Notes under the pieces: generated by a model | Database searches by the model: none | The model's input: only the letters and a program-made list of their open reading frames with translations | Told to the model about the DNA's origin: nothing | Program-made: the position numbers and the translations under genes | DNA from: Micromonospora sp. WMMD1120 | GTDB lineage: Bacteria; Actinomycetota; Actinomycetes; Mycobacteriales; Micromonosporaceae | Reading direction: 5' to 3' | Assembly: GCF_029626235.1 (NCBI RefSeq) | Contig: NZ_JARUBO010000005.1 | Span: 3,628,501 to 3,692,500 of the forward strand | Length of the DNA stretch: 64,000 nt | In this document: positions 22,487 to 38,114 of the stretch, one piece after another | How positions within the stretch are numbered: position 1 is the stretch's first letter | Layout of the letters: every line of letters begins with the position of its first letter

Positions 22487-23476
22487 ATGACCGAACCGGT
22501 ACGGCTGACGAAGTACGCCCGAGGCGGTGGCTGCGCCTGCAAGATCCCCCCGGGTGAGTTGGAGATCATGGTGGCCGGCCTCGGCCCGGCGACCGGCACC
22601 GCGGAACTGCTGGTCGGGTTGGACCACGGTGACGACGCGGCGGTGGTGCGTCTGGACGAGCGGACCGGCGTGGTCAGCACCGCCGACTTCTTCACCCCGG
22701 TGGTCGACGACGCGTACGACTGGGGGCGGATCGCGGCGGCCAACGCGCTCTCCGACGTCTACGCCATGGGCGGCACCCCGCTGGTGGCGCTCAACCTGCT
22801 GTGCTGGCCACGGGACGTGCTGCCGCTGGAGCTGGCCCGGGAGGTGCTGCGCGGCGGTCAGGACGTGGCCCGGCAGGCCGGTTGTCACCTGGCCGGCGGG
22901 CACAGCGTGGACGACGACGGCCCGAAGTACGGCCTGGCGGTCACCGGCACGGTCCGGCCGGAGGAGCTGATCACCCTCGACGCGGGCCGCGCTGGACTGC
23001 CGTTGTCGCTGACGAAACCGCTCGGGGTGGGCGTGCTGAACACCCGGCACAAGGCCACCGGCGAGAGCTTCCCGGAGGCGGTCGCGTCGATGAGCGCGCT
23101 CAACCGGGACGCCGCTCGGGCGGCGGTCGCGGCCGGCATCCGTTGCGGAACCGACGTGACCGGTTTCGGGCTGCTCGGGCACGCCTCGAAGCTGGCCCGT
23201 GCCAGCCAGCTCACGGTGGCCATCGACGTCGCCCGGGTGCCTCTGCTGGCGGGTGCGCGCGAGGCGGTGCGCGACGGCTTCGTCAGCGGCGGAAGCCGGC
23301 GCAACCTGGACTGGGTGACCCCGTGGACCGACTTCGGCGCGGCCGGCGAGGCGGAGCGGCTGTTGCTCGCCGACGCGCAGACCTCGGGCGGCCTGCTGGT
23401 CGCCGGCGAGGTGCCCGGCGCGCCGGTGGTGGGCGAGCTGCTGCCCCGGGGTGAGCATCGGGTCGTCCTGCGCTGA
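22487..23476 (+). CDS. selD: Selenophosphate synthase (selenide, water dikinase)
   Basis: 329-aa enzyme making selenophosphate from selenide and ATP, the selenium donor for selenocysteine and selenouridine. The glycine-rich N-terminal motif GGGCACKI supplies catalytic Cys16 and Lys19 (spacing C-x-x-K as in E. coli Cys17/Lys20). The variant uses Cys, not Sec. ATP-binding motifs include GDDAAVVRL, the ANALSDVYAMGGTP segment and GGHSVDD. The C-terminal DVTGFGLLGHASKLAR is diagnostic. ATG 22487 follows GAGGGA. No selA, selB or tRNA-Sec is in the window, so the selenium sink must be elsewhere. Confidence 0.94.
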   Translation: MTEPVRLTKYARGGGCACKIPPGELEIMVAGLGPATGTAELLVGLDHGDDAAVVRLDERTGVVSTADFFTPVVDDAYDWGRIAAANALSDVYAMGGTPLVALNLLCWPRDVLPLELAREVLRGGQDVARQAGCHLAGGHSVDDDGPKYGLAVTGTVRPEELITLDAGRAGLPLSLTKPLGVGVLNTRHKATGESFPEAVASMSALNRDAARAAVAAGIRCGTDVTGFGLLGHASKLARASQLTVAIDVARVPLLAGAREAVRDGFVSGGSRRNLDWVTPWTDFGAAGEAERLLLADAQTSGGLLVAGEVPGAPVVGELLPRGEHRVVLR

Positions 23477-23750
23477 GGCGGCCCGAACGGAAGGCCATCA
23501 GACCGGCCCGGACGCCACCGGCAGGCGGCGGGCGGGAAGCCGGGACACGCCGCGGGGCTGGTGCGGAGCGGCGCACCATACCCGATAAACTGTCACCTTC
23601 CCGCTACTCCGAGCAATGCGGCTCAGGGAAATTTTGCCCGGAATGGTCACAGACCGGTAACTTGCCCCCGGCTGGGGTCAAATGCCCCCCACCATCGTTC
23701 ATAAGGCCCGATCCGGAGGCCGGTGGGGACGAACGCAGCGAGGAGGCGGA

Positions 23751-24230
23751 ATGACCGAGCTGTGGAACTGGAGAATCGACGGCGCTCGACCCGTGGAGGT
23801 CTACCCGGCGTTGGCCGAGGCGCTCGGTCGGGTGGTGATGCCGTTGGCCGCGGCCGACCCGGCGCGGCTGCCGACGTACGCGGTGGTGTGCGACGTCTGG
23901 GAGGCGCCGGGCGAGTTCGCCACGGTGGTGGACTGCTACGGGGTGCCCGAGCGGCTGCCCGAGCACGCGAGCATCGCCGCGCTCGCCCGACTGCTCGGCC
24001 GCAACTGCCTGCTGCGGGACGACACGCTCGACGCGGGTCGGCACCTGCTGGTCGCCCCGGACGGCACGGTGCGTCCGGTGCACTTCGACGTGCGGGACAC
24101 CGACGACGGCGAGGTGCTCAGCAAACTGCGGCTGTGCTCGCTCGGCGACCCGGGCTGCCGGGGCTGGTCGCAGTGCCACCGCTCGCGGTGGGCGCCCGAC
24201 ACCGTCGCGCCGGCGCTCGCCGCGGCCTGA
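23751..24230 (+). CDS. Hypothetical protein
   Basis: 159-aa soluble protein with no recognised family. The start ATG 23751 has a strong GGAGGCGG site. It has Trp/Asp-rich patches (MTELWNWRIDGARPVEVYP; AVVCDVWEAPGEFATVVDCYG) and a Cys-containing C-terminus (LGDPGCRGWSQCHRSRW). The mixed alpha/beta composition gives no hint of export. It converges with the DUF2277 gene 10 bp downstream and lies close to the Fxs operon, but no functional link can be claimed. Confidence 0.65.
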   Translation: MTELWNWRIDGARPVEVYPALAEALGRVVMPLAAADPARLPTYAVVCDVWEAPGEFATVVDCYGVPERLPEHASIAALARLLGRNCLLRDDTLDAGRHLLVAPDGTVRPVHFDVRDTDDGEVLSKLRLCSLGDPGCRGWSQCHRSRWAPDTVAPALAAA

Positions 24231-24240
24231 CCCCCGGGCC

Positions 24241-24471
24241 TCAGGCCCGGGTGGTCGGGGCGCCCGCGCCTCGCACCACCAACTGGTCGAGGAGGGTGCG
24301 GGTCGCCTCGGCCACGGCGGCGACAGCGGTGTCGAACGCGGCGGCGTTGTGCGCGGCGGGCGCCCGGAAGCCAGAGATCTTCCGGACGTACTGCAACGCC
24401 GCCGCCTCGACGTCGGCGTCGGTCACCTGCGGCGTGAACGGCTCACGCAGCGTCTTGATGCTCCGGCACAT
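24241..24471 (-). CDS. DUF2277 family protein
   Basis: 76-aa protein starting MCRSIKTLRE and containing AALQYVRKISGFRAP, the DUF2277 signature. Such proteins are small and of unknown function. The ATG at 24471 has GGAGGAGC upstream on the minus strand; the frame continues to 24816 but the extension is not family-like. It is divergent from fxsA with 160 bp between, so the two may share a regulatory region. Confidence 0.85.
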   Translation of the reverse strand: MCRSIKTLREPFTPQVTDADVEAAALQYVRKISGFRAPAAHNAAAFDTAVAAVAEATRTLLDQLVVRGAGAPTTRA

Positions 24472-24528
24472 GTGCGCTCCTCCTCCGTCGACCCGCTGCC
24501 ACCCTTGGTGCCGACGGTGGTACCGACG

Positions 24529-24557
24529 GTGACACTGGGTCGATATTTGTCTATCCT
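24529..24557 (+). promoter_or_regulatory. Candidate promoter of the Fxs operon
   Basis: -35 GTGACA (24529-24534), 17-bp spacer, -10 TATCCT (24552-24557). It lies about 75 bp upstream of the fxsA start in an AT-richer patch. Just before it the word CCGACGGTG occurs twice in tandem-like order (about 24511-24531). Confidence 0.45.
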
Positions 24558-24631
24558 GGTCTCGGACCAGAGCCTTTCGAGCCATCGTCGCCACTCGCGC
24601 TCCCAGCGCCCCGGGCCCCCGGAGACTCATT

Positions 24632-24820
24632 GTGGACCATGTCCCCAGTCGCTCATCCCGTCCAGTCCTCGACGACCTGACACGTAGCCTGCACACCCCG
24701 CTGGAACGGATCGTCGTCGAGCACGCCGATCTCGTCGAGGCGGTGCGCCGACGCGTCGTCACCGACGATTCCGTGCCCTCCGGCAGCGTGGCCGTGGCCC
24801 TCTTCAACTCGTGCATCTGA
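24632..24820 (+). CDS. fxsA: FxsA-type RiPP precursor peptide (FxSxx-COOH)
   Basis: 62-aa peptide ending Phe58-Asn-Ser60-Cys-Ile, which fits the FxSxx-COOH rule exactly. The first 45 or so residues form a charged, probably helical leader (SRPVLDDLTRSLHTPLERIV; EHADLVEAVRRRVV). FxsB-type radical SAM enzymes are reported to crosslink the Phe ring to the Ser beta-carbon two residues on, forming a three-residue cyclophane (established for the family). GTG 24632 is preceded by GGAGA. The stop TGA directly abuts the fxsB GTG. A Cys in the penultimate position is a distinctive detail. Identity as precursor rests on the terminus plus the adjacent maturase. Confidence 0.87.
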   Translation: MDHVPSRSSRPVLDDLTRSLHTPLERIVVEHADLVEAVRRRVVTDDSVPSGSVAVALFNSCI

Positions 24821-27163
24821 GTGATGGCCTGCCGGTGCGATCCGTCCGCCGTGGGCGGGTCGTGCCGGCGGATCAGCCAGTTCGTGCTGAAGGTCCACAG
24901 CCGCTGTGACCTGAGCTGCGACCACTGCTACGTCTACCAGCACGCCGACCAGACCTGGCGTGGTCGTCCGGTGCGGATGGCGCCGGCCACGGTGCGGGCC
25001 GCCGCGCGACGCGTCGCCGAGCACGCCCGCGCGCACGGGCTTCCGGTCGTGCACGTGGTGCTGCACGGCGGTGAGCCGCTGCTGCTCGGCGCCGCCGGCC
25101 TGCGCGAGGTGCTGACCGAGCTGCGCACGACCATCACCCCGTGGACCCGACTCGACCTGCGCATGCAGACCAACGGCGTGCTGCTGGACGAGGAGCTGTG
25201 CCGGCTGTTCGTCGAGTTCGACGTGCGGGTCGGGGTGTCGTTCGACGGCGACCGGGCCGCCAACGACCGGCACCGGGTCTTCGCCCACGGCGGCAGCAGC
25301 TACGACCAGGTTCGGCGCGCCCTGGCGCTGCTCCGCCGGCCGGAGCACCGCGCCAGCTACGCCGGCATCCTCTGCACCGTCGACGTGCGTAACGACCCCG
25401 ACCGGGTCTACGAGGCGCTGCGGGCCGAGAGCCCGCCCCGGGTCGATCTGCTCCTGCCCCACGCCACCTGGGACAACCCGCCGCACCGCCCCGGCCCCGG
25501 GCCCACGCCGTACGCGGACTGGCTGAGCCGACTGCACCGCCGGTGGACGGACGACGGGTGCCCGATCTCGATCCGGATGTTCGAGGCGCTGCGGCCGGGT
25601 GGCGGTGGCAGCGAGGCGTTCGGGCTCGCGCCGGCCGACCTGCTGGTCATCGAGGCGGACGGCAGTTGGGAGCAGGCCGACTCACTGAAGACCGCCTACC
25701 ACGGCGCGGCCGACACCGGGCTCGACGTGTTCGGCCATTCGGTGGACGAGGTTGCCCGGCACCCCGGCGTCGCGGTCCGGCAGGACGGTGCGGCGGGGCT
25801 CTGCGCGACCTGCCGGGCCTGCCCGGTGGTCGACAGGTGCGGCGGCGGTCTGTACGCGCACCGCTGGCGCGCCGGCACCGGCTTCGACAATCCCTCGGTG
25901 TACTGCCCCGACCTGCTCCGTCTGATCGACATCGTGGACTCCCGCCCGCCACCGGCCCGCGTCAGCGCCGCGCCGGTCGACGCCGGGTCCGCGCCCGTCG
26001 AGGCGTTGCTCGACGACCTCGCCACCGGGCCCGGCTCGCCGTCCACGCTCGCCCTGCTCGCCGCCACCCAGCTCTCCATCACCCGGGCGCTGCTGGGCGC
26101 CTGCCGGGACCGGTCCGGCCCCAGCGCCGCCTGGGAGCTGCTCGTCGCTGTCGAGCAGGCGGCGCCCGAGATCGTCCGGGCGGTGCTGGAGCATCCCTTC
26201 GTCCGGCCGGCGCTGGTGTGGCACCTCGACCGGTCGACCTCGTCCGGCGCCGACGCGACCGTCGATCCGCTGCCGGCCCTCGCCGTCGCCGCGGCCGCGC
26301 GGGCCGGCGTCCCGGCGACGGTGCGGGTCCCGACGCGGGCCGGGGTGGTCGCGTTGCCCACGCTGGGCACCGTCGCGTTGCCCGCCCCGCTGCCGACCGT
26401 CGAGGTGACAGTGCGGCCGGACGAGATCCGGCTGGGCAGCGGGTCCGCCGAGCGGACGATCCCACTCGACCCGCTGGCGTCGCCGTCGGCCGGCTGGTCA
26501 CCGACGCGGGACGTGCCGGTGCCCGGTGGGCGGCTGCTCATCGAGGACGGCGATCCGTACCGGGACTGCTACGGCGAGACGGTGTCGTCGCGCCTCACGC
26601 CTGCCGCGGCGCTGGCGTTCGGCCGTACCCTGGCCGAGGCCCTGCGTGTCGTGCGGCGTGACGTGCCGGCGCACGCGGCGACGCTCGACGGCGGTCTGCG
26701 GGCGGCCGTGCCGTTGGCTCACGACCCGGCGCGGCCGCTGCGCAGCGCGACGGCGCGGCACGCGTTCGGCGCGGTCTCCATCACTCCGGCCCTCGACCCG
26801 GCGACGATGGCGGTGCTGCTCGTGCACGAGTGGCAGCACGCGAAGCTGGGCGCCGTGCTGGACCTGTTCGACCTCGTCGAGCCGGGGCGGGACGCCCTGA
26901 TCCGGGTGCCCTGGCGCCCCGACCCCCGACCTCCGGAGGGGGTGCTCCAGGGCGTCTACGCCCACCTGGCGGTCACCCAGGTCTGGCAGTCCCGGGCGAT
27001 GGTCGACGACACCGAGGCCCCGGCGCACGCCGCCCGTTTCCTGGCCTGGACCCGGGACGGCGCCGACGCGTTACTCGCCAGCCGCTCGCTAACCGAGCCC
27101 GGCGAGCGATTCGTCGGCCAGCTGCGTCGGGCCCTGGAGGAGACCTGTGTCGGGTCCGGATGA
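24821..27163 (+). CDS. fxsB: FxsB radical SAM/SPASM maturase with C-terminal HEXXH domain
   Basis: 780-aa fusion. The radical SAM domain (about residues 20-235) has CDLSCDHCYVY with Cys29, Cys33 and Cys36 binding the 4Fe-4S/SAM cluster, followed by VVLHGGEPLLLG and MQTNGVLLD. The SPASM region (about 325-370) has GLCATC, RACPVVDRCGGG and a later YCPDL, enough Cys for auxiliary clusters. From about 400 on comes a second module with HEWQH near residue 669 (HEXXH domain seen in this family; zinc-metalloprotease-like, activity unproven). It should install the Phe-Ser crosslink on FxsA. The start GTG 24821 follows the fxsA stop without a gap (ATG 24824 possible). Its last 17 nt overlap the AAC(3)-like gene. 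Confidence 0.92.
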   Translation: MMACRCDPSAVGGSCRRISQFVLKVHSRCDLSCDHCYVYQHADQTWRGRPVRMAPATVRAAARRVAEHARAHGLPVVHVVLHGGEPLLLGAAGLREVLTELRTTITPWTRLDLRMQTNGVLLDEELCRLFVEFDVRVGVSFDGDRAANDRHRVFAHGGSSYDQVRRALALLRRPEHRASYAGILCTVDVRNDPDRVYEALRAESPPRVDLLLPHATWDNPPHRPGPGPTPYADWLSRLHRRWTDDGCPISIRMFEALRPGGGGSEAFGLAPADLLVIEADGSWEQADSLKTAYHGAADTGLDVFGHSVDEVARHPGVAVRQDGAAGLCATCRACPVVDRCGGGLYAHRWRAGTGFDNPSVYCPDLLRLIDIVDSRPPPARVSAAPVDAGSAPVEALLDDLATGPGSPSTLALLAATQLSITRALLGACRDRSGPSAAWELLVAVEQAAPEIVRAVLEHPFVRPALVWHLDRSTSSGADATVDPLPALAVAAAARAGVPATVRVPTRAGVVALPTLGTVALPAPLPTVEVTVRPDEIRLGSGSAERTIPLDPLASPSAGWSPTRDVPVPGGRLLIEDGDPYRDCYGETVSSRLTPAAALAFGRTLAEALRVVRRDVPAHAATLDGGLRAAVPLAHDPARPLRSATARHAFGAVSITPALDPATMAVLLVHEWQHAKLGAVLDLFDLVEPGRDALIRVPWRPDPRPPEGVLQGVYAHLAVTQVWQSRAMVDDTEAPAHAARFLAWTRDGADALLASRSLTEPGERFVGQLRRALEETCVGSG

Positions 27164-27971
27164 GTCGTCCCCGCCCAGGCTGGGCCGATCCCGCCTCGCC
27201 GACGACCTGCGGGCCCTGGGCGTACGCCCGGGCGCGTGCCTCGTGGTGCACTGCGGCCTGCGTCGGGTCGGTCCGCTGGACCACGGCCCCGCGACCCTCG
27301 CCGGCGCCCTGCGCGACGTCCTCGGTCCGGCCGGCACGCTGCTGGTGCCCACCCACACCGACGGCAACTCGACGACCTCCCGGGCGCACCTGGCCGCCAC
27401 CGCCGGGATGGACCGGGCGCAACGGGAGCGGTACGAGGCGACGCTGCCCGGCTGGGACCGCCGGACCACCCCGTCGCAGCGGATGGGTGCGCTCGCCGAG
27501 TACGTCCGGTCCGCCCCCGGCGCGGTGCGCAGCGACCATCCCCAGACCTCGTTCGCCGCGCTCGGCCCCCGGGCCCGGCAGCTCACCGACGACCATGACC
27601 TCCACTGTCACCTCGGCGAACGCTCACCGATGGGCGCCCTCTACGCGGCCGACGGGCAGGTCCTGCTGCTCGGCCTCGGCTATGAGGCGTGCAGCGCCCT
27701 GCACCTGGCGGAATACCGGCTGCCGGTGCCTCCGCCCGAGCGGGACTACCGCTGCTTCCGGCTGGTCGCCGGGCGCCGGGTGGCGCTGGACTTCCGCGCC
27801 CTCGACCTGGACGACAGCGACTTTCCGATGGTGGGGGCCGCGCTCGACGACACGCCGATCGTGCGCCGGGGTCGGGTCGGGCGCGCCGACGCCCGGCTGC
27901 TGCCGGCGCGGGCCGCTGTGGACTTCGCCGTTGACTGGTTCACGACAAACCGGTTGGCGGCGCGACGTTGA
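27147..27971 (+). CDS. AAC(3)-like aminoglycoside N-acetyltransferase family protein
   Basis: 274-aa member of the Antibiotic_NAT fold. Recognisable segments are ADDLRALGVRPGACLVVHCG, PAGTLLVPTHTDGN, SDHPQTSFAALGPRA and the catalytic region LLLGLGYEACSALHLAEYR, with a His-x-x-Glu pattern. Classical members acetylate the 3-amino group of 2-deoxystreptamine antibiotics using acetyl-CoA. Inside this operon an endogenous amine, such as a residue or end group of the peptide, is an alternative substrate (inference). GTG 27147 overlaps fxsB and has GGAGGAG upstream, so it is co-translated. Resistance should not be assumed. Confidence 0.85.
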   Translation: MSGPDESSPPRLGRSRLADDLRALGVRPGACLVVHCGLRRVGPLDHGPATLAGALRDVLGPAGTLLVPTHTDGNSTTSRAHLAATAGMDRAQRERYEATLPGWDRRTTPSQRMGALAEYVRSAPGAVRSDHPQTSFAALGPRARQLTDDHDLHCHLGERSPMGALYAADGQVLLLGLGYEACSALHLAEYRLPVPPPERDYRCFRLVAGRRVALDFRALDLDDSDFPMVGAALDDTPIVRRGRVGRADARLLPARAAVDFAVDWFTTNRLAARR

Positions 27972-28023
27972 CGCACGGACTACGCTGATGTTCCGGCCGC
28001 GTGGGGAGGGCGGAGGGGCAGTC

Positions 28024-28683
28024 GTGACCACAGTGGACGCACCCTCCGCGACGCGTGCCCCGCTCTTCTTCGTCAGCTATTCCCGGGCCCCGGTCGGCCG
28101 CGCCACCGGCAAGCCCGCCGAGTACGTCTCCCGATTCTTCGAGGACCTCTCCGTTCACGTGAGCGAGTTGGTCGGCCCGGTGACCGGAGTGGACGCCGGC
28201 TTCCTGGACACCTCGATCGCGGGCGGCGAGCGCTGGAGCCCGGAGCTGCTCCAGGCCGCCGGCACCTGTCAGGTCTTCGTGCCGCTGGTGTCCAGCGCGC
28301 TGATCGGCAGCGACTGGTGTGGTCGGGAGTGGGACGCGTTCTCCCGCCGGCGCATCGTCCCCCGGCACAGCTCCGCCTCGGTGCACGAGACGGCGATCGT
28401 GCCGGTCACCTGGTCGCCGACGAACGGCACCGTGCTGCCCCGGGTGCTCCGCGACATCCAGCGATTCTCCCCGACCGCGATGCCGGATCCGGACATCGCG
28501 GTGCACTACCAGCGGGACGGGGTCTACGGCTTGTTGACCATGCAGTGGGAGAACGCGTACCGGGCGGTGGTCTGGCGACTCGCCCAGCGGATCGTGGCCA
28601 TCCACCGGTCGTACCTGGTCGAGCCCTGGGTGCCGGCGAACATGGAGGAGCTGCGCAACCGGTTCACCGAGGAGCCGGCGTGA
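28024..28683 (+). CDS. fxsC: TIR-like protein FxsC (short form)
   Basis: 219-aa TIR-like protein. The beginning APLFFVSYSRAP is the betaA strand of a TIR domain. A central FLDTSIAGGERWSPELLQAAG and VFVPLVSSALIGSDW follow, then the W98-C-G-R-E102 motif. Glu102 aligns with the catalytic Glu of NAD-cleaving TIR domains, so enzyme activity is possible but unproven. The C-terminal part (about 150-219) lies beyond a usual TIR. GTG 28024 has GGAGGGCGGAGGGG upstream. Its stop overlaps the next TIR-like gene by 4 nt. Family assignment follows from context and sequence; which of the two TIR proteins is FxsC proper cannot be settled here. Confidence 0.8.
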   Translation: MTTVDAPSATRAPLFFVSYSRAPVGRATGKPAEYVSRFFEDLSVHVSELVGPVTGVDAGFLDTSIAGGERWSPELLQAAGTCQVFVPLVSSALIGSDWCGREWDAFSRRRIVPRHSSASVHETAIVPVTWSPTNGTVLPRVLRDIQRFSPTAMPDPDIAVHYQRDGVYGLLTMQWENAYRAVVWRLAQRIVAIHRSYLVEPWVPANMEELRNRFTEEPA

Positions 28684-29942
28684 GCCCGCCGGGGGGTCGT
28701 GGCCGGCCGGCGACGCGCGGGACGTACTTCTTCCTGAGCTACGCCCACTCGGCGCCGCCGCCGGGCGCTCGGGCCGACGCCGACGTGTGGGTCGGTCAGT
28801 TCTTCGCCGACCTGACCGACGAGGTGCGACGTCAGGCGCGACCGGTGGCGGGGATGCGGATCGGCTTCTTCGACCAGCACATCCCGCTGGGCGCCGACTG
28901 GAAGGCCGCCCTCGCCGAGGCGCTCGGTGACGCCGAGGTGTTCGTCCCGCTCTACTCGCCCGGCTACTTCAGCCGTCCGTGGGCGCTCGGCGAGCAGGAG
29001 TCGTTCCGGGCCCGGCTGGCCGCCGCGGGGCCGGCCCGGGTCACCGCGGGTCACCTCACCCCGGTGCTGTGGATCCCGTTCCCTCCGTGGGAGACCCACC
29101 CGGAGCTGGACGGCGCCCTGGACCTGGGCCGGGACGTCCCGGAGTACGCCGCCGACGGCCTGCGCGCGTTCTGCATGCTGGCCTCCTACCGGGACCGCTA
29201 CGAGCTGTTGCTGCGCCGCCTGGCGAGCCGGATCGTGCACACCGCCGAGCGCCGGCCGATGGGCCCGTCCCGGGCGCCGGGCCTCGACGAGGTCGTCCGC
29301 CCGGCGTCCACCGACCCGGACTTCGTCGTCGCCGTCCTGGCCCCGACCCGCGACCACCTGCCGACCAGCCGCGACCCCGCCGCCTATGCGACCAGCGGCC
29401 GGCGCTGGCGGCCGTACGGGCGACGCCAGGAGCTGCCCGCTGCCGAGTACGCGGCCAGCACCGCCGAGCGGCTCGGGCTGGTGGCCCGCACGGAGGACTT
29501 CGCGCACGCCGCCGATCTGCTCGCACGCCGGCCGGCGGTGCTGCTCGTCGACCCGTGGATCGCGGCGACACCGGACGGGACCGCGACCCTCGCCCGGATG
29601 CTGGCCGGCCTGCGGGAGTGGGTCGTGCCGCTGGTGGTCACCGACGACGACGACAGCCAGGACGCGACCGAATGGGCCACCGAGGTCACCCAGCTGCTGC
29701 ACGATGTCGGTCTGCCCCAGGTCAAGCGCGCCTGCAACGTGCCGGAGTTCGTTGACCTGATGCCGGCGCTGGTCACCGAGGCCCGCCGCCAGTTCCTCAA
29801 GTACGGCCCGGTCGTCCCCTTCGAACCACCGCCGGAGCCGGTGCCGAGCCTGCGGGACGGCCTGGGCGCCACCGGCTCCCTCGACACCGCGTCCCCGCCT
29901 GATGATCCGGGCTCACCGCGTCCACACGGAGAAAACCGATGA
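28680..29942 (+). CDS. TIR-like protein, long FxsC-type form
   Basis: 420-aa protein from GTG 28680, overlapping the first TIR gene by 4 nt. The N-terminal TIR-like domain (about residues 14-195) starts TYFFLSYAHSAPP and has FFDQHIPLGADWKAALAEAL, then VFVPLYSPGYFSRPWALGE; W101 and E105 repeat the W-x3-E spacing of its neighbour. A second half (about 215-385) starts DFVVAVLAPTRDHLP and has alternating strands and helices (VVPLVVTDDDDS; GLPQVKRACNVPEFVDLMPAL). The Pro/Ser-rich tail is probably flexible. The stop overlaps fxsT. The C-terminal half looks like the conserved FxsC-specific region, but no function is known. Confidence 0.8.
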   Translation: MSPPGGRGRPATRGTYFFLSYAHSAPPPGARADADVWVGQFFADLTDEVRRQARPVAGMRIGFFDQHIPLGADWKAALAEALGDAEVFVPLYSPGYFSRPWALGEQESFRARLAAAGPARVTAGHLTPVLWIPFPPWETHPELDGALDLGRDVPEYAADGLRAFCMLASYRDRYELLLRRLASRIVHTAERRPMGPSRAPGLDEVVRPASTDPDFVVAVLAPTRDHLPTSRDPAAYATSGRRWRPYGRRQELPAAEYAASTAERLGLVARTEDFAHAADLLARRPAVLLVDPWIAATPDGTATLARMLAGLREWVVPLVVTDDDDSQDATEWATEVTQLLHDVGLPQVKRACNVPEFVDLMPALVTEARRQFLKYGPVVPFEPPPEPVPSLRDGLGATGSLDTASPPDDPGSPRPHGENR

Positions 29943-32900
29943 ACAACGATCGTGAAGGTCAGGTCGTCACCTTCTACTCGTTCAAGGGTGGGACGGGCCG
30001 GACGATGGCGCTGGCCAACGTGGCCTGGATCCTGGCGGCCAGCGGCCGGCGGGTGCTGGTCGCGGACTGGGACCTGGAGTCCCCCGGCCTGCACCGCTTC
30101 TTCCACCCGTTCCTCGACGCCGAGGCCATCCAAGGCACCAGCGGCGTGATCGACATGATCCGTGACTACGAGTGGGAGACGACCCGGGTCGACGAGCGAC
30201 CGGACCGCTGGATGGAGCAGTACGCCCGGGTCGGGCGGCACGCGTTCTCCCTGCGCTGGAACTTTCCGGAGGGCGGCGGCCTCGACTTCCTCTCCGCCGG
30301 CCGGCAGAACAGCGACTACGCGGTCTCGGTGAGCGGGCTGGACTGGGACAACTTCTACAACCGGCTGGGCGGGGCGCAGTTCTTCGAGGCGCTGCGGGCG
30401 GACATGAAGCGGCAGTACGACTTCACCCTGATCGACAGCCGGACGGGGTTGAGCGACGTCGCCGACATCTGCACCCTGCACCTACCGGACACGCTCGTCG
30501 ACTGCTTCACGCTCAGCGACCAGGGCATCGACGGCGCGGCCCGGGTGGCGCACTCGGTCCGGGACCGCTACCGGCGGCGCGACATCCGGGTGCTGCCGGT
30601 GCCGATGCGCGTGGACCAGGCCGAGAAGGAGCGGGCCGAGGCGGGCCGGCTGCTGGCCATGCGCCGGTTCGCCGGGTTGCCGGCCGGCATGACCGAGGCG
30701 GAGCGACGGCGGTACTGGGCGGCTGTCGAGGTCCCGTACCGCCCGTTCTACGCGTACGAGGAGACCCTGGCGACGTTCGGTGACCCGCCCGGTTCGCCGA
30801 CGTCGCTGCTGGCCGCGTTCGAGACCCTGACCGGGATCCTCACCGACGGGGCGGTGACAGCGCTGCCGGTGATGGACGAGTCGGTGCGGGAGCGGGGCAA
30901 GGCGCGGTTCCGGCGGCGCACCGAGGCCGTCGACGACCAGATCGTCCTCCGGTACGCCCCGGAGGACGCCATCTGGGCCGAGTGGCTGGAGCGGGTGCTC
31001 AGCTCTGCCGGGCTGCGGGTGGTGGAGCCCACCGCCGCCGTCGGGTCCGCCGGCACACCGGCCCCGCGCACGCTGACGGTGGTCTCGCCGGCCTACGTGG
31101 CGACGCCGTCCGGCGGCCTGCCGGCCCGCGACACCAGCACCGGGTCCACCGCCCTCGCGGTGTACGTAGCCGACCTGCGACCGCTCGCGGAGTTCCCGTC
31201 GCAGAGTTCCACCAACCTGGTCAACGTGAGCGCCGCGACCGCTGTGGAGCGGGTGTTGCGACTGGTGGGCCGGCCGGTGCCCTCGTCGGCGGACGGTCCG
31301 GTGGCCGGCTCCACCCGCTATCCCGGCACCGAGCCGCTGATCTTCAACGCCCCGAACCGGAACGCGCGCTTCACCGGCCGCGAGGACGACCTGGCCCGGC
31401 TGCGCACGCAGTTGCAGAGCGGTGGCAGCGCGGTGGTGCTGCCGGTCGCCCTGCAGGGCATGGGCGGCGTGGGTAAGACGCAGGTGGCGCTGGAGTACGT
31501 GCACCGGTTCAAGGCCGCGTACGACGTGGTCTGGTGGATCGTGGCCGACCCGCCGCAGTTCGTCGACACCGCCCTGGCCGACCTCGCGAGTCGCCTCGGG
31601 GTCCTGGCCGGGCCCACCCTGCCGGACACCGTCCGGTCGGTGCTCCAGGTGCTCAGTCGGGGCGAGCCGTACGAGCGGTGGCTCGTCGTGCTGGACAACG
31701 CCGAGGAGCTGGACCAGATCGAGCCGTTCCTGCCCCAGGGGCCGGGCCACGTGCTGCTGACGTCCCGCAACCGGGCCTGGGGTGACCGGGCGAACCCGAT
31801 CCAGGTGGATGTCTTCGCCCGGACGGAGAGCGTCGCGCACCTCGCCCAGCGGGTGCCGACGATCAGCGCCGAGGAGGCCGACCAGGTGGCCGAGGCGCTC
31901 GGCGACCTGCCGATCGCGGTGGCCGCGGCGGGCGCGTGGCTCGCCGACACCGGCACGCCGGTGGGCGACTACCTTCGGCAGATCGACAGGCACGGCCCCA
32001 GCGCCCTCTCCGTGGAGGCCACCTGGGACCTGTCGCTAAACCGGTTGCTGGAGCAGGCGCCCGCCGCGTACCGGCTGTTGCAGCTCTGCTCGGTGCTGGC
32101 CCCCGAGATCGCCCTCGATCTGGTCTACAGCGACGAGATGGCGGCGGCCCTCACGCCGTTCGACCCGTCGGTGTCGGAGCGGCTCGTGCGCGGCGCCCTG
32201 GTCCAGCAGATCAACCGGCTGGCGCTGCTCAAACTCGACGTGCAGGGCGGTCGGATCCAGGTGCACCGGCTGTTGCAGGCGGTGGTCCGGGACCGGATGA
32301 CCGACGACGAGATCAGCGCCGCCCGGCACCAGGTGCACCTGGTGCTGGCCGCCTCCCGGCCCCGTGGCGAGGTGGACGACCCGAACACCTGGGACCGGTT
32401 GCGGATGCTCTGGCCGCACCTGGAGGTCTCCGAGGCGGTCAGCTGTCCGGACGAGGCGGTGTGCCAGCTGCTGATCGACCGGGTCCGCTACCTCTGGCAG
32501 CGGGGCGGCCTGGACCAGGCCGACGAGTTCAGCCACGAGGTGGACGAGACCTGGTCCGCCCGGCTCGGCGACGTCCGGGAGCAGACCGAGGCGACGCCGT
32601 TGAGCCGGCAGTTGCTGCACCTGCGGTTCAACCGGGCCAACATCCTGCGCAGCCTGGGTCGGTTCGACGAGGCGCGGGACCTGGACGAGGCGGTGTTGGC
32701 CGAGCAACGGCGGCTGCTGGGTCCGCTGCACCCGCACAGCCTGATGACCGCCGGTAGCCTCGGTGGTGACCTGCGGGCGCTCGGTCGCTACGCCGAGGCC
32801 CTGGAGCGGGACCGGTCCACCTACGCCTCCTGGCTGCAGGTGTTCGGCGAGGACCACCCCCGTACGTTGAGCGCGGCCAACAACCTCGCGGTCTCGTACC

Positions 32901-33808
32901 GGTTGGTCGGCGACTACCGGTCGGCCCGCCGGTGGGACGACGAGGTGCACCAGCGGCGACGGGTGGTCCTCGGGCCCACCGACCCGTACACCCTGGTCTC
33001 GGCGCTCCGCCTGGGCAGCGACCTGCGGGAGGCCGGCGAGTACGAGAGGTCGGCGACCCTGCTGCGCACCGTCTACGAGTCGTACTGCGAGGTGCTCGGT
33101 CCGGACGACGCCAGAAGCCTCAGCGCCCAGGTCAACCTGGCGGTGTCCCTGCGCAGCGCCGGCCGGGGGACCGAGGCGGCGCCGCTGTTCGACGCGGCCT
33201 ACCGCAAGTTCGACGAGCTCTTCGGCCCGGACAACCCGGACACCGTCGCGTGCCGGTCGAGCCGTGCGGCGAACCTGCTGGCCGTCGGTGACGCGGGTCG
33301 GGCGCTGACCGAGATGACCGCCGTCGGCCAGGCGTACGAGACGGAGTTGCGACTCGGACCGGAGCATCCGCTCACCCTGGCGACGATCAGCAACATCTCC
33401 GCAGCGCAGCGTGCCCTCGGGCGCGGTTCGGACGCCCGCCAGTCCGCCGCCAGGGCGGTCGGTGACCTGCGCAAGGTGCTGGGTCCCGACCATCCGCACA
33501 CCCTCGCCGCCGAGGTGAACCACGCGGTGTGCACCGCCGAGGAGGGCGACTGGGAGACGGCGCGGGACCGGCTGCGGGAGACCGCCGGCCGGCTGGCCAC
33601 GGTGATCGGCGCCGACCACCCGGACACGCTGCGCTGCCTCGGCGACCTCGCCCTGGTGTTGCGCCGGGCCGCCGACGGCGCCCCGGCCGACGACGTCAGC
33701 ACGGTGGCGGACCGCCTGGCCGACGTGATCGGCCAGGACCACCCGACGGTGCAGACGCTGCGGGAACGCCGCTTCATCGTCCGCGTGATCGACCCGCACA
33801 CGATCTGA
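29939..33808 (+). CDS. fxsT: FxsT: ParA-like / TIR-like / NB-ARC / TPR multidomain protein
   Basis: 1289-aa last gene of the operon. Residues about 8-290 form a MinD/ParA-like ATPase ([50 protein letters not shown]). About 330-445 is a degenerate TIR-like segment ([20 protein letters not shown]). About 460-760 is a STAND/NB-ARC NTPase with Walker [10 protein letters not shown] near 508, Walker B-like [11 protein letters not shown] near 583 and the sensor LLTSRNR. From about 860 to 1270 come about ten TPR-12-like repeats (for example [20 protein letters not shown]). The N-terminal P-loop has Arg where Lys is expected (GTGRT). Such proteins typically sense a partner through repeats and oligomerise. 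ATG 29939 overlaps the preceding stop. Confidence 0.85.
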
Positions 33809-33817
33809 CGGTTGGTC

Positions 33818-33847
33818 GCCGGTGGGCCGCGCGTCCGGCCCACCGGC
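33818..33847. terminator. Bidirectional terminator after fxsT
   Basis: Perfect 12-bp stem GCCGGTGGGCCG / CGGCCCACCGGC, loop CGCGTC, between fxsT (+) and the convergent hydrolase gene. Confidence 0.75.
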
Positions 33848-33860
33848 CCCCGACCTGACG

Positions 33861-34793
33861 TCAGAGTCGCGGGCTGGTCGCGAGGTCCGGCGTGGCCAGC
33901 CAGGTCAGGGTCTGCGGCAGGATCTCCACGGCCCCGAAGTGCGCGGCGCCGGGCTGCACCTGGACCTCCGCCCGGCTGATCTTCGACGCGAGCCAGTGCG
34001 AGTGTTCGACGGGCGAGAATCGGTCCTGCTCGCCGTGCCAGAGCCGGACCTCCGCGCGGATGGCGCCGAGGTCGAACCCCCAGCCGCGGCGGATCGCCAG
34101 CACGTCGTCGATCCAGCCCTCCGGGCCGTGCCGCAGCGCCTCGGAGTACATGTCGGTCAGCAGCCGGCGGATCGCGACGTCGTCGACGACCCGGATGTCC
34201 TCGTCGGGCAACTGGGGGCGCAGGAACTCCAGCAGCGTCATCGGGTCCCGGCGGGCCTCCTCGGCCCGGACCTTCAGGTTGAGCGTGAGCTCGGCCAGGT
34301 CGTCGTCGGCCTGCCCGAAGTCCTCCACGTTCGACTCGGCCATGCCGGCGTACCAGTCCAGGTCGGGCGCCCCGGCCGGGGCGAGACCCACCAGCACGGC
34401 GGCCCGGGTGACCCGCTCCGGCAGCAGGGCGGCGCAGGCCAGGGCGTGCGGCCCACCGCCGGAGCGCCCCACCACCGCGAACCGTTCGATGCCGAGGTCG
34501 TCGGCGATCGCCGCCACGTCGGCCGCGGCGTCGGCCACCCGCCGGCCCTCGTGCCGGTCGGAGTCGCCGTAACCGGGCCTGTCGTAGCAGACCAGGTGCA
34601 CGCCGAGGCGATAGACGACGATGCCCCGGGGGCGGGGGCCGCTGCGACTGCCCGGGGTGCCGTGCAGGAGAAACACCGCCGGGCCGTCCGGCGCGCCCGA
34701 TGTCTCCACCGCGAGGTGCCGCCCGTCCGCCGTCGTGACGGTGCGCTGTGTCGCGTCTTGTCGCGTCACGGTTGGCCTCCCGCGGGTCGTCAT
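33861..34793 (-). CDS. Alpha/beta hydrolase
   Basis: 310-aa alpha/beta-hydrolase. The oxyanion region is [13 protein letters not shown], the nucleophile elbow is [12 protein letters not shown] (Ser in GRSGG), and the C-terminal part has [20 protein letters not shown] (acid Asp) and AAHFGAVE (catalytic His). ATG 34793 has GGGGGAGCAC upstream on the minus strand; a longer frame to 34865 is unlikely. The substrate is unknown. It converges with fxsT over a terminator, so it is not part of the Fxs operon. Confidence 0.85.
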
Positions 34794-34988
34794 GTGCTCC
34801 CCCGTGAACGGAGCCGCGCATCGTCGGCGCCGAGTGCAAAGCCCCCGAAATCGCCCAGAACACATTCTTGTGTGCAGCGTACTGCCCGTCGTGGATGCCC
34901 GCCATTGGCCACCGGGTCAATGCCGGTGGGCCGGGGCCCCGGCAGGGGCCGCTACCCTGGTAGCCCGAGGGGAAGGGGCACCAATCCG

Positions 34989-36482
34989 GTGGCGAGGACC
35001 TACAACGTCGTGACGTACGGCTGCCAGATGAACGTGCACGACTCCGAGCGGATATCCGGCCTGCTCGAACAGGCCGGCTACGTGCGCGCGACGCCGACCG
35101 ACGACACCCCGGACATCGTCGTCTTCAACACTTGCGCGGTACGGGAGAACGCGGACAACCGGCTCTACGGCAACCTCGGTCGCCTGCGCCCGGTGAAGGA
35201 CAAGCATCCCGGCATGCAGATCGCGGTCGGCGGCTGCCTGGCCCAGAAGGACCGGGGCGACATCGTCCGCAAGGCGCCCTGGGTGGACGTCGTCTTCGGC
35301 ACCCACAACATCGGGTCCCTCCCGGTGCTGCTGGAGCGCGCCCGGCACAACGCCGCCGCCGAGGTGGAGATCCTGGAATCCCTCGACGTGTTCCCCTCCA
35401 CGCTGCCGACCCGCCGCGAGTCGACGTACGCCGGCTGGGTGTCGATCTCGGTGGGCTGCAACAACACCTGCACCTTCTGCATCGTGCCGGCGCTGCGTGG
35501 CAAGGAGAAGGACCGGCGTCCCGGCGACATCCTCTCCGAGGTGCGCGCCCTGGTCGACGAGGGCGTGCTGGAGGTGACCCTGCTCGGGCAGAACGTCAAC
35601 TCCTACGGCGTCGAGTTCGGCGACCGGTACGCGTTCGGCAAGCTGCTGCGCGCCTGCGGCGACATCGACGGCCTGGAGCGGGTCCGCTTCACCAGCCCGC
35701 ACCCGAAGGACTTCACCGACGACGTGATCGCCGCGATGGCCGAGACGCCGAACGTCTGCCACTCGCTGCACATGCCGTTGCAGTCCGGCTCCGACGACGT
35801 GCTGAGGGCGATGCGCCGGTCCTACCGCTCCGAGCGCTACCTGGGCATCATCGAGAAGGTCCGGGCGGCGATGCCGGACGCGGCGATCACCACCGACATC
35901 ATCGTCGGCTTCCCCGGTGAGACCGAGGCCGACTTCCAGCGCACCCTGGACGTGGTCCGCGAGGCGCGGTTCTCCTCGGCCTTCACGTTCCAGTACTCCA
36001 AGCGACCCGGCACCCCGGCGGCGACCATGGACGACCAGCTGCCCAAGCAGGTCGTGCAGGAGCGCTACGAGCGGCTGGTGGCGACCGTCGAGGAGATCAC
36101 CTGGGCGGAGAACAAGCGCCTCGTCGGGGAGACCGTCGAGGTGCTGGTGGCTGTCGGCGAGGGCCGCAAGGACGAGCGCACCGGCCGGATGTCCGGCCGG
36201 GCCCGGGACGGCCGCCTGGTGCACTTCGCCACCGACGGGCCGGGCGGGGAGTCCCTCGCCGGCCAGATCCGGCCGGGCGACATCGTGCACACCACCATCA
36301 CGTACGCCGCGCCGCACCACCTGAACGCCGACGGGGCGCTGGTGGCGCACCGCCGCACCCGGGCCGGTGACGCGGCCGAGGCGGGACGCTCCCCGCGTAC
36401 CCCCGGGGTGTTGCTCGGTCTGCCGACGATCGGCGCGCCGCCGGTCGTGGCCGCGCCCACCGCGGGCTGCGCCGCGCACTGA
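34989..36482 (+). CDS. miaB: tRNA-2-methylthio-N6-dimethylallyladenosine synthase MiaB
   Basis: 497-aa radical SAM methylthiotransferase that converts i6A37 to ms2i6A37 in tRNAs. The N-terminal UPF0004 domain has Cys residues in [18 protein letters not shown] and AVGGCLAQ (auxiliary 4Fe-4S cluster). The radical SAM motif is CNNTCTFC near residue 158. A TRAM domain is near 390-455. GTG 34989 places the family-typical [18 protein letters not shown] at the N-terminus, with GAGGGGAAGGGG 10 nt upstream. It acts after MiaA, encoded about 9 kb downstream. In related genomes DUF349 follows soon after; here that order is interrupted. Confidence 0.97.
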
Positions 36483-36522: not shown

Positions 36523-37881
36523 TCAGATGGTGATCTTGCCGGCGCCGGCGCCCGCCAGCACGATGGACTTGACGTTGCTGGCCGGGTCCAGCTGGTACGG
36601 GTACGGGATGCTGGCCACGCTGCCACCGGCCTGGCCGGTGGGCGAGTTGACGAAGTGGTTGTTGCGGGCGACCAGGCTGCCGGGCCCCGAGTCGCCCTCA
36701 CCCAGGTGGTACGGGTCGTCGACGTTCTCGAAGTAGTTGCCCTCGACGAGCACGCCGGCCCGCTCGGTGGACGCGATGCCGTAGCCGCCGTTGGCCCGGT
36801 AGTAGTTGTTGTAGACGTGCACCGGGTTGCCGAACCGCACCCGGGGGTTGCGCTGGTTGCTGCCGTCGAAGTAGTTGTGGTGGTAGCTCACCCGCAGGTG
36901 GCCGACGTCCTGGCTCGCGTTGTCGTCGCTGTGCCCGAGCAGCATCGTCTTGTCGTGGCTGAACACCCGGTTCCAGGACACCGTGACGAAGTCCGAGCCG
37001 CGCTTGATGTCGACGGCGCCGTCGTACCCGTTGCTGAAGGTGTTGTGGTCGATCCAGATGTTGCTGGCCGACTCCTGCACGTTGATCGCGTCGTCGTTCC
37101 AGCTGCGGAAGGTCAGGTTGCGGATGATCACGTTGCGGTCACCGTTGATGTTGAACCCGCAGCCGACGATCGTCGCCCCGTAGTTGCCGATGATGGTCTT
37201 GTTGGAGCGGACCCGCAGCATCCCCGAGCAGGTGATCGTCCCGGTCACTCGGATCACCGCGGCGCCTGTCGCGTTCAGCGCGCTGGTCAGGCCCGAGGCG
37301 TTGCTGACGGTGGTCGTGGCGGCGTTGCCGCCACCCGTGGTGCCGCCGTTCTGGGTGGCCCAGCCGACGAGGTTCGACGGCTGCTGGTTGGTCGGCGGGG
37401 GAGTGCTCGACGGCGGCGGGGTGGTCGGCGGTGGCGTGGTCGGGGTGGTCGGCGTGGTGCTGCCGGTGCAGGCGACGTTGTTCAGGGAGAAGCTGGTCGG
37501 GGCGGGATTGCTGGAGTTGTTCCAGCTCGCGTTGAAGCCGAACGACGCGCTGCCGTTCGTCGCCAGGTTGCCGTTGTAGTCGACGTTCGTCGCGGAGACC
37601 TGGCTGCCGCTCTGCGTGACGGTGGCGCCCCACGCCTGGCTGGTCTGCTGACCGGCCCCGTACGTCCAGCGCAACGTCCACCCGGAGAGCGGGTCGCCCA
37701 GGTTGGTGACTGTGACGTTGCCGGTGAAGCCGCCGGGCCACTGGCTGGCGACCGAGTAGGTCACCTGGCACCCGGCGGCGGCCTGGGCGGACACCGAGGT
37801 CAGCAGACCGGCGGCGACGAGGGTGGCGGTGGCTGCGGCGGTGGTGGCGATCAGCGTCGATCGACGCCGTCCTGTGCGCAT
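36523..37881 (-). CDS. Secreted pectate lyase (PL1-type) with N-terminal CBM2
   Basis: 452-aa secreted enzyme. A Sec signal (residues 1 to about 35; Arg-rich start, hydrophobic core, SAQA end) precedes a CBM2 cellulose-binding module (about 38-137; VTYSVASQWPGGFTGNVTVTN). A Pro/Thr-rich linker (about 140-170) leads to the parallel beta-helix pectate lyase domain (about 175-452). Diagnostic segments are SNIWIDHNTF, VDIKRGSDFVTVSWN, VSYHHNYFDGSNQRNPRVRFG (catalytic RxPxxR-like region) and VHVYNNYY. It cleaves polygalacturonate by beta-elimination. ATG 37881 has AAGGAAG upstream. It is one of two plant-polymer enzymes inserted between miaB and DUF349. Confidence 0.93.
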   Translation of the reverse strand: MRTGRRRSTLIATTAAATATLVAAGLLTSVSAQAAAGCQVTYSVASQWPGGFTGNVTVTNLGDPLSGWTLRWTYGAGQQTSQAWGATVTQSGSQVSATNVDYNGNLATNGSASFGFNASWNNSSNPAPTSFSLNNVACTGSTTPTTPTTPPPTTPPPSSTPPPTNQQPSNLVGWATQNGGTTGGGNAATTTVSNASGLTSALNATGAAVIRVTGTITCSGMLRVRSNKTIIGNYGATIVGCGFNINGDRNVIIRNLTFRSWNDDAINVQESASNIWIDHNTFSNGYDGAVDIKRGSDFVTVSWNRVFSHDKTMLLGHSDDNASQDVGHLRVSYHHNYFDGSNQRNPRVRFGNPVHVYNNYYRANGGYGIASTERAGVLVEGNYFENVDDPYHLGEGDSGPGSLVARNNHFVNSPTGQAGGSVASIPYPYQLDPASNVKSIVLAGAGAGKITI

Positions 37882-38024
37882 GCTGCTTCCTTTCGATGAG
37901 GCGGACGACCCGTCGCTGCGCCCATGCCCGTGGGCCGCGACTCCCGGCCGGACCTGTGGTCCGCGGGCCCGCCAGTGCTGGTACGTGAAGAAAGCGGCTC
38001 CTGCGCGTGCGCCGGCCGTGGACA

Positions 38025-38038
38025 GGCAAGCGCTTTCC
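38025..38038. promoter_or_regulatory. LacI-type operator upstream of pectate lyase gene
   Basis: GGCAAGCGCTTTCC contains the perfect palindrome AAGCGCTT, the CG-centred form bound by LacI-family repressors. It lies about 145 bp upstream of the pectate lyase ATG. Confidence 0.4.
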
Positions 38039-38073
38039 CGATGAAAGCATAGAAGCATCTGGATGTAAATGGC

Positions 38074-38114
38074 CGGGACGGCCGATGCGGTACCCGCCCG
38101 CACCGGCCGTCCCG
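38074..38114. terminator. Terminator of the cellulase gene
   Basis: A 17-bp stem, CGGGACGGCCGATGCGG with CCGCACCGGCCGTCCCG (one mismatch), loop of 7 nt, just downstream of the minus-strand cellulase stop. Confidence 0.7.

Follow-up and report, generated by a model that had tools for sequence, protein, structure and literature searches.

The window analyzed here is a stretch of 64,000 nucleotides (nt) from the 7.15-Mb genome of Micromonospora sp. WMMD1120. It contains an operon that belongs to the FxSxx-COOH (Fxs) system. A preliminary description, made from the DNA letters, had listed six co-directional, mostly abutting or overlapping genes, and both the coordinates and the family models agree with that account (Table 1). 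All six lie in one direction and four of them, encoding FxsB, both FxsC proteins and FxsT, exceed their NCBIfam cut-offs. That description left out a seventh gene, which is convergent with the operon and encodes an alpha/beta-hydrolase. The comparisons reported below concern this hydrolase, which accompanies the form of FxsB found in the window, and an AAC(3)-like acyltransferase gene inside the operon, which does so only in part of the loci.

Neighbouring genes of the operon overlap or almost touch, and the widest gap, 52 nt, separates fxsC1 from the AAC(3)-like gene. Coupling of the reading frames is seen in the overlap of fxsB with the AAC(3)-like gene and in the 4 nt shared by fxsC1 and fxsC2 and again by fxsC2 and fxsT. 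The first gene encodes a peptide of 62 amino acids (aa) ending in FNSCI, as described previously; its sequence gave no match to Pfam, NCBIfam or PADLOC models at E 0.01. The product of the last gene had been read as a ParA/TIR/NB-ARC/TPR giant. Matches to ParA-type, NB-ARC and TPR models bear this out, and the TIR-like part is matched weakly (TIR_2 at 18.4 bits, cut-off 28). When the window was searched with the NCBIfam set for FxSxx-COOH systems (TIGR04269, TIGR04267, NF040588, TIGR04276, NF040586), FxsB, its HExxH domain, FxsC and FxsT each scored above the cut-off. The closest relatives of the window FxsB come from Micromonospora. Beyond fxsT, the region 33800-33870 folds with -48.7 kcal/mol (z -6.9), a stability equalled in 0 of 200 shuffles.

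Table 1. Positions of the genes and sequence elements of the Fxs locus in the window
Feature	Position	Strand	Basis and remarks
Promoter-like site: GTGACA, 17 nt, TATCCT	24529..24557	+	75 nt 5' of fxsA; consensus scan, 1 against 0.2 expected in shuffles; weak
fxsA, precursor of 62 aa, GTG start, C-terminus VALFNSCI	24632..24820	+	Sequence read
fxsB, fusion of radical SAM/SPASM and alpha-ketoglutarate-type HExxH domains, ATG at 24824	24821..27163	+	TIGR04269, TIGR04267
Antibiotic_NAT (AAC(3)-like) acyltransferase gene, His186-Glu189 dyad, optional partner	27147..27971	+	PF02522, 250 bits
fxsC1, short FxsC, TIR domain alone	28024..28683	+	NF040588, 158 bits (cut-off 130)
fxsC2, TIR domain with Glu105 and FxsC C-terminal domain	28680..29942	+	NF040588, 150 bits (cut-off 130); TIGR04276, 70 bits (cut-off 55)
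fxsT, KGGTGR ParA/MinD-like domain, degenerate TIR-like domain, NB-ARC STAND ATPase, TPRs	29939..33808	+	NF040586 (FxSxx_TPR), 976.7 bits (cut-off 300); NF047398 (KGGVGR-type AAA), 138 bits (cut-off 90); Pfam NB-ARC/TPR
GC hairpin of 12 bp between convergent genes, possible two-way terminator	33818..33847		Fold of 33800-33870
alpha/beta-hydrolase gene, S135, D281, H309, seventh gene, convergent	33861..34865	-	PF00561, 69.6 bits; 52 nt beyond fxsT

Fxs loci and the convergent hydrolase

Three sets of sequences were compared, and the co-occurrence statistics drawn from them take no account of phylogeny or kinship. The class census covered 178 genomes. FxsB scored above its cut-off in 30 of these, and all 38 places listed (37 above the cut-off) were inspected together with their flanks. 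FxsB is fused to an HExxH domain at eight places, including the window, and unfused at 30. At the eight fused loci, fxsC is present and FxsT includes the ParA-TIR part; five unfused loci (L058-L062) likewise have FxsC, together with a second FxsT. A search that started from the eight fused proteins yielded 80 named loci, which are the best 80 of 369 and not a census. The resulting fused set has 88 loci, or 87 after removal of a duplicate contig (L140, the same as L037). The genus census covered 101 same-genus genomes, 51 of which carry fused FxsB. No fused FxsB was found in phage records and none with more than 80% cover in plasmid records; one 11.85-Mb record filed as a plasmid had two FxsB pieces at 40% identity. 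The 80 scanned loci are actinobacterial, with one record (L135) from an Acidobacteriaceae metagenome-assembled genome. The contig with this fused locus is just 5.9 kb long, and transfer and mis-binning are indistinguishable in this case.

A survey of shared open reading frames (ORFs) of at least 110 aa around the 88 loci revealed one family beside fxsT on the other strand, present at 73 of them. Survey rows of similar size occupied the same places on the opposite strand and were read as antisense shadows, and the next true flanking family reached 20 of the 88 loci. In the window this family is represented by the alpha/beta-hydrolase. Among 71 relatives, 97% or more keep each of the triad residues Ser135, Asp281 and His309, and NCBIfam release 20.0 holds no Fxs-specific model for it (best match 66 bits, cut-off 390). 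The position of the gene could be tested at the 74 fused loci that include fxsT and 700 nt beyond it. It is convergent and within 1.3 kb of fxsT at 70 of these, and is present somewhere in the stretch at 72. The exceptions are L134, where it is 3.2 kb away, L038, where it lies on the 5' side of the operon, and L117 and L145, which have none in the stretch. Genome-search coordinates place the L117 hydrolase just past the examined stretch, and probably that of L110 as well; the genome with L145 has the hydrolase at two other complete Fxs loci. The distance of the hydrolase tracks that of FxsT with r 0.92 (72 loci, 0 of 500 permutations) and that of FxsB with r 0.84.

The hydrolase was found at 0 of the 30 unfused loci. 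Scores above 400 bits were obtained in nine of the 178 class genomes, namely all eight with fused FxsB and G141, in which the hydrolase faces an FxsT-like gene and fxsAB are absent; the next score was 352 bits (G073). In the genus census, the hydrolase (374 bits or more) and fused FxsB (at least 540 bits, 52 places) are each present in 51 genomes. Both occur in 50 genomes, FxsB only in one (G250), the hydrolase only in one (G239) and neither in 49 (n = 101; Fisher's p 1e-26, with kinship ignored). The case of G239 is a contig beginning inside fxsB. At 49 of the 52 FxsB places in the genus the hydrolase is 8.1-9.2 kb away on the opposite strand; contig ends split two more. Taken together, these data suggest that the hydrolase is probably a dedicated part of the system, serving as an off-switch or receptor for the modified peptide or for a TIR product. 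Being transcribed separately and no less constant than the core genes, it is best read as acting in turnover or as a receptor.

Two further observations were made on the distribution of this gene. A Streptomyces genome (G204) has three fused-type Fxs loci (L199, L208, L145), one of them without an adjoining hydrolase. Separately, tandem fxsT genes coincide with hydrolase loss in all three loci of that kind that were seen (L073, L080, L210).

The peptide, FxsC and FxsT

An FxSxx-COOH ORF is located 5' of fxsB at every one of the 88 fused loci, and at all 87 when the duplicate is removed. The distance from fxsA to the estimated fxsB start is about 90 nt or less at 86 of 87 loci and 199 nt in L145. 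Among the unfused loci used for comparison, 7 of 30 have a same-strand FxSxx ORF no more than 250 nt upstream. The pairing of fxsA with fxsB is not due to chance. Since the search required a terminal F.S.., the invariant F and S are there by construction. At freely varying positions, 70 of the 87 loci have Val at -8, 68 have Ala at -7 and 62 have Ala at -6. In the FNSCI core of the window F and S are two residues apart, as a triceptide link between residues i and i+2 would need.

Mean identities were calculated over the same 72 loci. They are 0.64 for FxsB, 0.60 for the FxsA core, 0.57 for the hydrolase, 0.47 for the NB-ARC/TPR part of FxsT, 0.34 for FxsC, the fastest-changing of the proteins, and 0.22 for the FxsA leader. 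Conservation of the last eight FxsA residues is close to that of FxsB, and the leader drifts. This bears on the suggestion in the preliminary description that the peptide is a self/non-self signal. The C-terminus reads FNSSI at 30 of 87 loci, and a core nearly fixed across several families argues against self/non-self recognition. A polymorphic signal of this kind was rejected, the core being nearly fixed while the leader varies.

Among the 81 fused loci with 3 kb after fxsB, 79 have fxsC and 27 have a second copy. For fxsT the figure is 69 of the 71 loci with 8 kb after fxsB; the exceptions are L110 and L082, the latter with its operon continued at the beginning of a different contig (L207). 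The preliminary description had called for a comparison of Fxs loci across actinomycetes for co-conservation of all six genes. Such co-conservation holds for fxsA, fxsC and fxsT and fails for the second fxsC and for the AAC(3)-like gene. In the class census FxsC was above its cut-off in 14 genomes; 13 have it inside an FxsB locus and the fourteenth (G017) is without FxsB above cut-off. FxsT-type proteins were above cut-off in 43 class genomes, 29 of which are among the 30 with FxsB. The co-occurrence counts thus indicate that fxsAB imply fxsC and fxsT, and not conversely.

The column of the TIR glutamate in FxsC holds Glu in 102 of 108 hits, with two Asp and four gaps. It aligns, in a weak match (E 0.0054), to a Glu of the flax L6 TIR domain, which we take to be the catalytic Glu of L6. 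A Pfam TIR_2 match was obtained for 39 of 48 FxsC proteins. These features suggest that the TIR domain of FxsC is likely an effector that consumes nicotinamide adenine dinucleotide (NAD) or makes a signal. In FxsT, Pfam TIR_2 matches the TIR-like middle part at E <=0.1 in 24 of 28 members, and a PDB search with this domain gave no match. An acidic residue three columns beyond the Glu site is common in FxsT (39 Asp and 19 Glu of 83). The ParA-like motif KGGTGR is invariant in at least 97% of 83 proteins, and the NB-ARC P-loop of the window protein reads GMGGVGKT.

Related genes were also found apart from complete operons. At L155 (8924-11832) and L156 (7365-10393), in stretches without fxsAB, FxsC adjoins a frame of 526 or 591 aa with the ParA-TIR part of FxsT; FxsC and such a frame possibly form a separate effector module. 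The window's own genome encodes three further FxsT-like NB-ARC/TPR proteins at C5:6535705-6537675, 4408648-4410624 and 1324893-1326950 (596, 537 and 213 bits, the first two above cut-off). A second FxsB above cut-off was not found in that genome.

FxsB and the acyltransferase

The radical SAM/SPASM part of the window FxsB matches TIGR04269 with 543.6 bits (cut-off 370), and its HExxH domain matches TIGR04267 with 142.7 bits (cut-off 40). The radical SAM and SPASM Cys residues are conserved in the eight FxsB proteins fused to HExxH (FxsBH). A profile built from these eight detects solved relatives of both halves, ChlB (PDB 9gm3) at 346 bits and the HExxH-half structure 22nu at 308 bits. Another similar SPASM radical SAM enzyme is the triceptide enzyme MscB, whose InterPro number is presumably that of the FxsB family. 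MscB bonds Phe C4 to Ser Cbeta of residues i and i+2 (PMC11002830), a spacing that fits F-x-S. The comparison with MscB is one of enzymes.

In ChlBH, a fused radical SAM-HExxH protein, the cyclophane is formed first and beta-hydroxylation follows (PMC12636437). ChlBH hydroxylates Asp and His, in contrast to the window, where the FNSCI core has neither residue. The HExxH part was considered a precursor-cleaving peptidase by Kaur et al. (PMC7159879), whereas current NCBIfam names it a peptide beta-hydroxylase. The motif is intact in the window (HEWQH), for which beta-hydroxylase activity is predicted, and in 80 of the 85 further loci that could be assessed; a later His (339) is present in 81 of 89 rows. 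A role of HExxH as the required precursor protease was rejected, because the five remaining assessable loci have lost the motif and keep the other genes.

The AAC(3)-like gene ACETYLTRANSFERASE of the Antibiotic_NAT family lies within the operon in 44 of 81 fused loci and in 0 of 30 unfused ones. On a FastTree tree of FxsB its presence has changed no fewer than 14 times. It is an optional partner, and the six genes as one obligate unit were rejected on the same two grounds, the 44 of 81 operons and the changes on the tree. The protein matches Pfam Antibiotic_NAT with 250 bits and falls below all five listed NCBIfam AAC cut-offs (best 175 bits, cut-off 270); release 20.0 has no Fxs-specific model for it. 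Its nearest solved structures, sharing the Antibiotic_NAT fold, are FrbF (231 bits) and YokD (216 bits), both without aminoglycoside activity (PMC8956665). FrbF acts on a phosphonate intermediate, according to a title in the reference list of that paper. The family motif contains a catalytic His and Glu (PMC8956665). This dyad is kept, with His186 in at least 97% and Glu189 in 90-97% of 47 relatives, and the window has Ser for Thr in the TxHxAE-type motif. A plain resistance gene was rejected based on the scores below cut-off, the kinship to FrbF and YokD and the linkage to Fxs, and the resistance label is probably mistaken. An acyltransferase that would act on the peptide or on a signal fits better than drug resistance.

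Copies of this gene were also sought outside the operons, with 300 bits as a threshold of our own choice. Scores above it were obtained in six of the 178 class genomes, all with fused FxsB, four having the gene in the operon and two elsewhere in the genome; the best Antibiotic_NAT score not linked to FxsB was 288 bits. For the 37 operons without the gene, 32 genomes were searched (four others are in the class census and one shares a genome), and 14 of the 32 had a copy above 300 bits outside the operon. Of the 11 copies that were inspected, four are at Streptomyces loci, just past fxsT on the opposite strand, one is at a sister locus (L095), two are part of an additional complete Fxs locus (L199, L202) and four are apparently solitary (L200, L201, L203, L204). 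Our initial reading of such copies as a distant partner acting in trans was dropped after this breakdown. In all, solitary Fxs-type Antibiotic_NAT copies away from Fxs operons were noted at L200, L201, L203, L204, L205 and L206.

Around the operon, 16 neighbouring ORFs were chosen for analysis with Pfam. Those with matches resemble an amino-acid ABC transporter, an AIR-synthase-type protein, DUF2277 and pectate lyase, and 10 of the 16 gave no family. No vWA/MoxR partners, as in the VMAP/MoxR-vWA ternary system, were detected among the 16. The pectate lyase gene (36526-38103, minus strand), downstream of the hydrolase, also encodes a cellulose-binding domain. An Rfam scan of 23000-36000 gave no RNA match.

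A proposed role for the modified peptide

The coupling of FxSxx peptides to radical SAM and TIR/AP-ATPase-TPR proteins, which headed the preliminary description, was published in 2020 by Kaur et al., who interpreted it as a conflict system and proposed the peptide as a toxin or amplifying signal (PMC7159879). A regulated-conflict reading of the window is accordingly reasonable and not new. The operon in the window resembles their stand-alone FxSxx systems of actinobacteria in having a small FxSxx-COOH protein, a zincin-like HExxH domain, a radical SAM-SPASM enzyme and an AP-ATPase with an inactive MinD/ParA-like domain and TPRs (PMC7159879). It differs in that the text of section 24 in that paper names neither Antibiotic_NAT nor alpha/beta-hydrolase, although its figures may show more; the alpha/beta-hydrolases of Kaur et al. 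are tied to caspase-like effectors (PMC7159879). As far as our literature search goes, the hydrolase partner and the optional acyltransferase are additions to the published system. The operon also resembles receptors of the TIR-NLR type (TIR with nucleotide-binding leucine-rich-repeat proteins), such as plant L6, and bacterial TIR systems, in combining a TIR domain with a conserved Glu, an NB-ARC switch and a repeat domain. Unlike in TIR-NLR proteins, the TIR and NB-ARC/TPR parts are on separate proteins, and FxsT carries a degenerate TIR and the KGGTGR domain.

Based on these observations, the operon in the window is read as a stand-alone actinobacterial FxSxx-COOH system with no vWA/MoxR partner, which would operate as follows. 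FxsB would staple together the Phe and Ser of the F-x-S motif that lies at the very C-terminal end of FxsA, and the HExxH half, where its motif is intact, would hydroxylate the peptide. The modified peptide would stay inside the cell, because no exporter or protease gene is conserved nearby. As a fixed ligand or co-factor it would set the state of the TIR/STAND pair, in which FxsT, with its NB-ARC and TPRs, may be the switch and FxsC, with its TIR Glu, the effector, NAD-consuming or signal-making. The output would be dormancy or death upon stress or infection. The hydrolase may turn over or receive the modified peptide or the TIR product, and the acyltransferase would be an optional modifier of the peptide or signal, not primarily a resistance protein. 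We hold this reading as a whole tentatively, with slightly less than even confidence; gene content, conserved active-site residues and co-occurrence come from the sequences, Phe-Ser crosslinking and HExxH hydroxylation have been demonstrated for relatives by other groups, and the signalling, NAD and death parts are what we infer. In a narrower version, which we consider doubtful, a ribosomally synthesized and post-translationally modified peptide (RiPP) is kept in the cell, its stapled C-terminus being the built-in ligand, a guard or safety pin, of a two-protein TIR/STAND death switch, and the dedicated, receptor-like hydrolase facing the operon reads or erases the mark or the TIR product.

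Several observations weigh against an internal peptide that sets the TIR/STAND pair. FxsT-type proteins occur in 14 of the 148 class genomes without FxsB above cut-off, and L155 and L156 have FxsC and a ParA-TIR protein with FxsB absent nearby, so that the peptide is not always needed. The preliminary view of a peptide-triggered TIR/STAND circuit is partly supported: loci with fxsAB carry fxsC and fxsT, and the TIR/STAND parts also occur without FxsB. The TIR-like domain of FxsT is without the conserved catalytic Glu at matching spacing. The hydrolase is not found beside L145, and it is missing or scores no more than 214 bits in L073, L080 and G250 (L210), all with tandem fxsT, and so is dispensable there. 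The five loci without the HExxH motif, which correspond to two changes on the FxsB tree, all keep fxsC, fxsT and the hydrolase. Furthermore, exporters encoded elsewhere, genes shorter than 110 aa and non-orthologous proteases escape the ORF scan, and the literature search found neither a biological role of the Fxs peptide nor wet functional data.

A possible though doubtful alternative is a module for development or regulated death of mycelial actinobacteria with no phage role, in which the peptide reports a state of the cell (for example redox or S-adenosylmethionine) and FxsT and FxsC bring about lysis or dormancy of old hyphae. It agrees with the almost fixed core peptide and with the distribution of the loci, which apart from the L135 record are actinobacterial, many of these bacteria being mycelial. 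It also agrees with fused FxsB being chromosomal where seen, and not on plasmids or phages, and with its presence in 51 of 101 same-genus genomes. The phage part of the defence role proposed earlier is, for its part, unsupported: searches of plasmids and phages gave no full-length fused FxsB, and PADLOC (2023 library) contains no Fxs system and returned only partial, weak matches to shared domains (pVip on FxsB with 27.6 bits; PDC-M28B on the N-terminus of FxsT with 80 and 48 bits). Against the developmental alternative, a gene carried by roughly half of the genus is patchy for one with such a role, and FxsC changes fastest, as in conflict systems.

An exported RiPP, acting as an antibiotic or extracellular signal, appears unlikely to us. 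A general protease would free the peptide, FxsC and FxsT would be regulators, the acyltransferase would give self-protection through acetylation and the hydrolase would degrade the product. The closest chemistry is indeed that of triceptide RiPPs, and acetyltransferases and hydrolases are frequent immunity or tailoring types. However, besides the core genes and the hydrolase no ORF family of at least 110 aa is found at more than 20 of the 88 loci, and none is a conserved exporter, protease or signal peptide gene. The acetyltransferase is missing from 37 of 81 operons, and a STAND/TIR pair would be odd as a regulator of an antibiotic. The near-invariant residues are confined to the very C-terminus of a 62-aa protein, and this tiny end, the lack of a conserved exporter or protease, the fast-changing TIR and the STAND switch together favor an internal signal over a secreted antibiotic. 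Finally, the hydrolase might be an old neighbour retained by shared ancestry of place with no functional part, as its location on the other strand and the inheritance of gene order within the genus would allow; this is very improbable, given that no other flanking family occurs at more than 20 of 88 loci, that the link outlasts an inversion upstream of fxsB (L038) and inserts of about 1-3 kb (L107, L134) and persists with the FxsT-like gene of G141 where fxsAB are gone, and that the hydrolase is missing from 49 of the 50 same-genus genomes that lack fused FxsB, with the contig break accounting for the remaining one.

The correct unit for any test of the system is seven genes, with the hydrolase nearly as conserved as FxsB and the acyltransferase optional. 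Comparison of the fused type with the hydrolase and the unfused type without it offers a matched natural contrast. The chemistry of FxsB-type enzymes is known and, according to the literature search, the purpose of the peptide is not; the hydrolase partner may help to work it out. A known unit has been completed and its function made testable, the mechanism being a proposal. If it is true that the peptide gates the TIR/STAND pair, RiPP chemistry would be linked to NLR-like immunity, and an intracellular stapled ligand would join nucleotides and pathogen proteins as a third means of setting an NLR-like switch.

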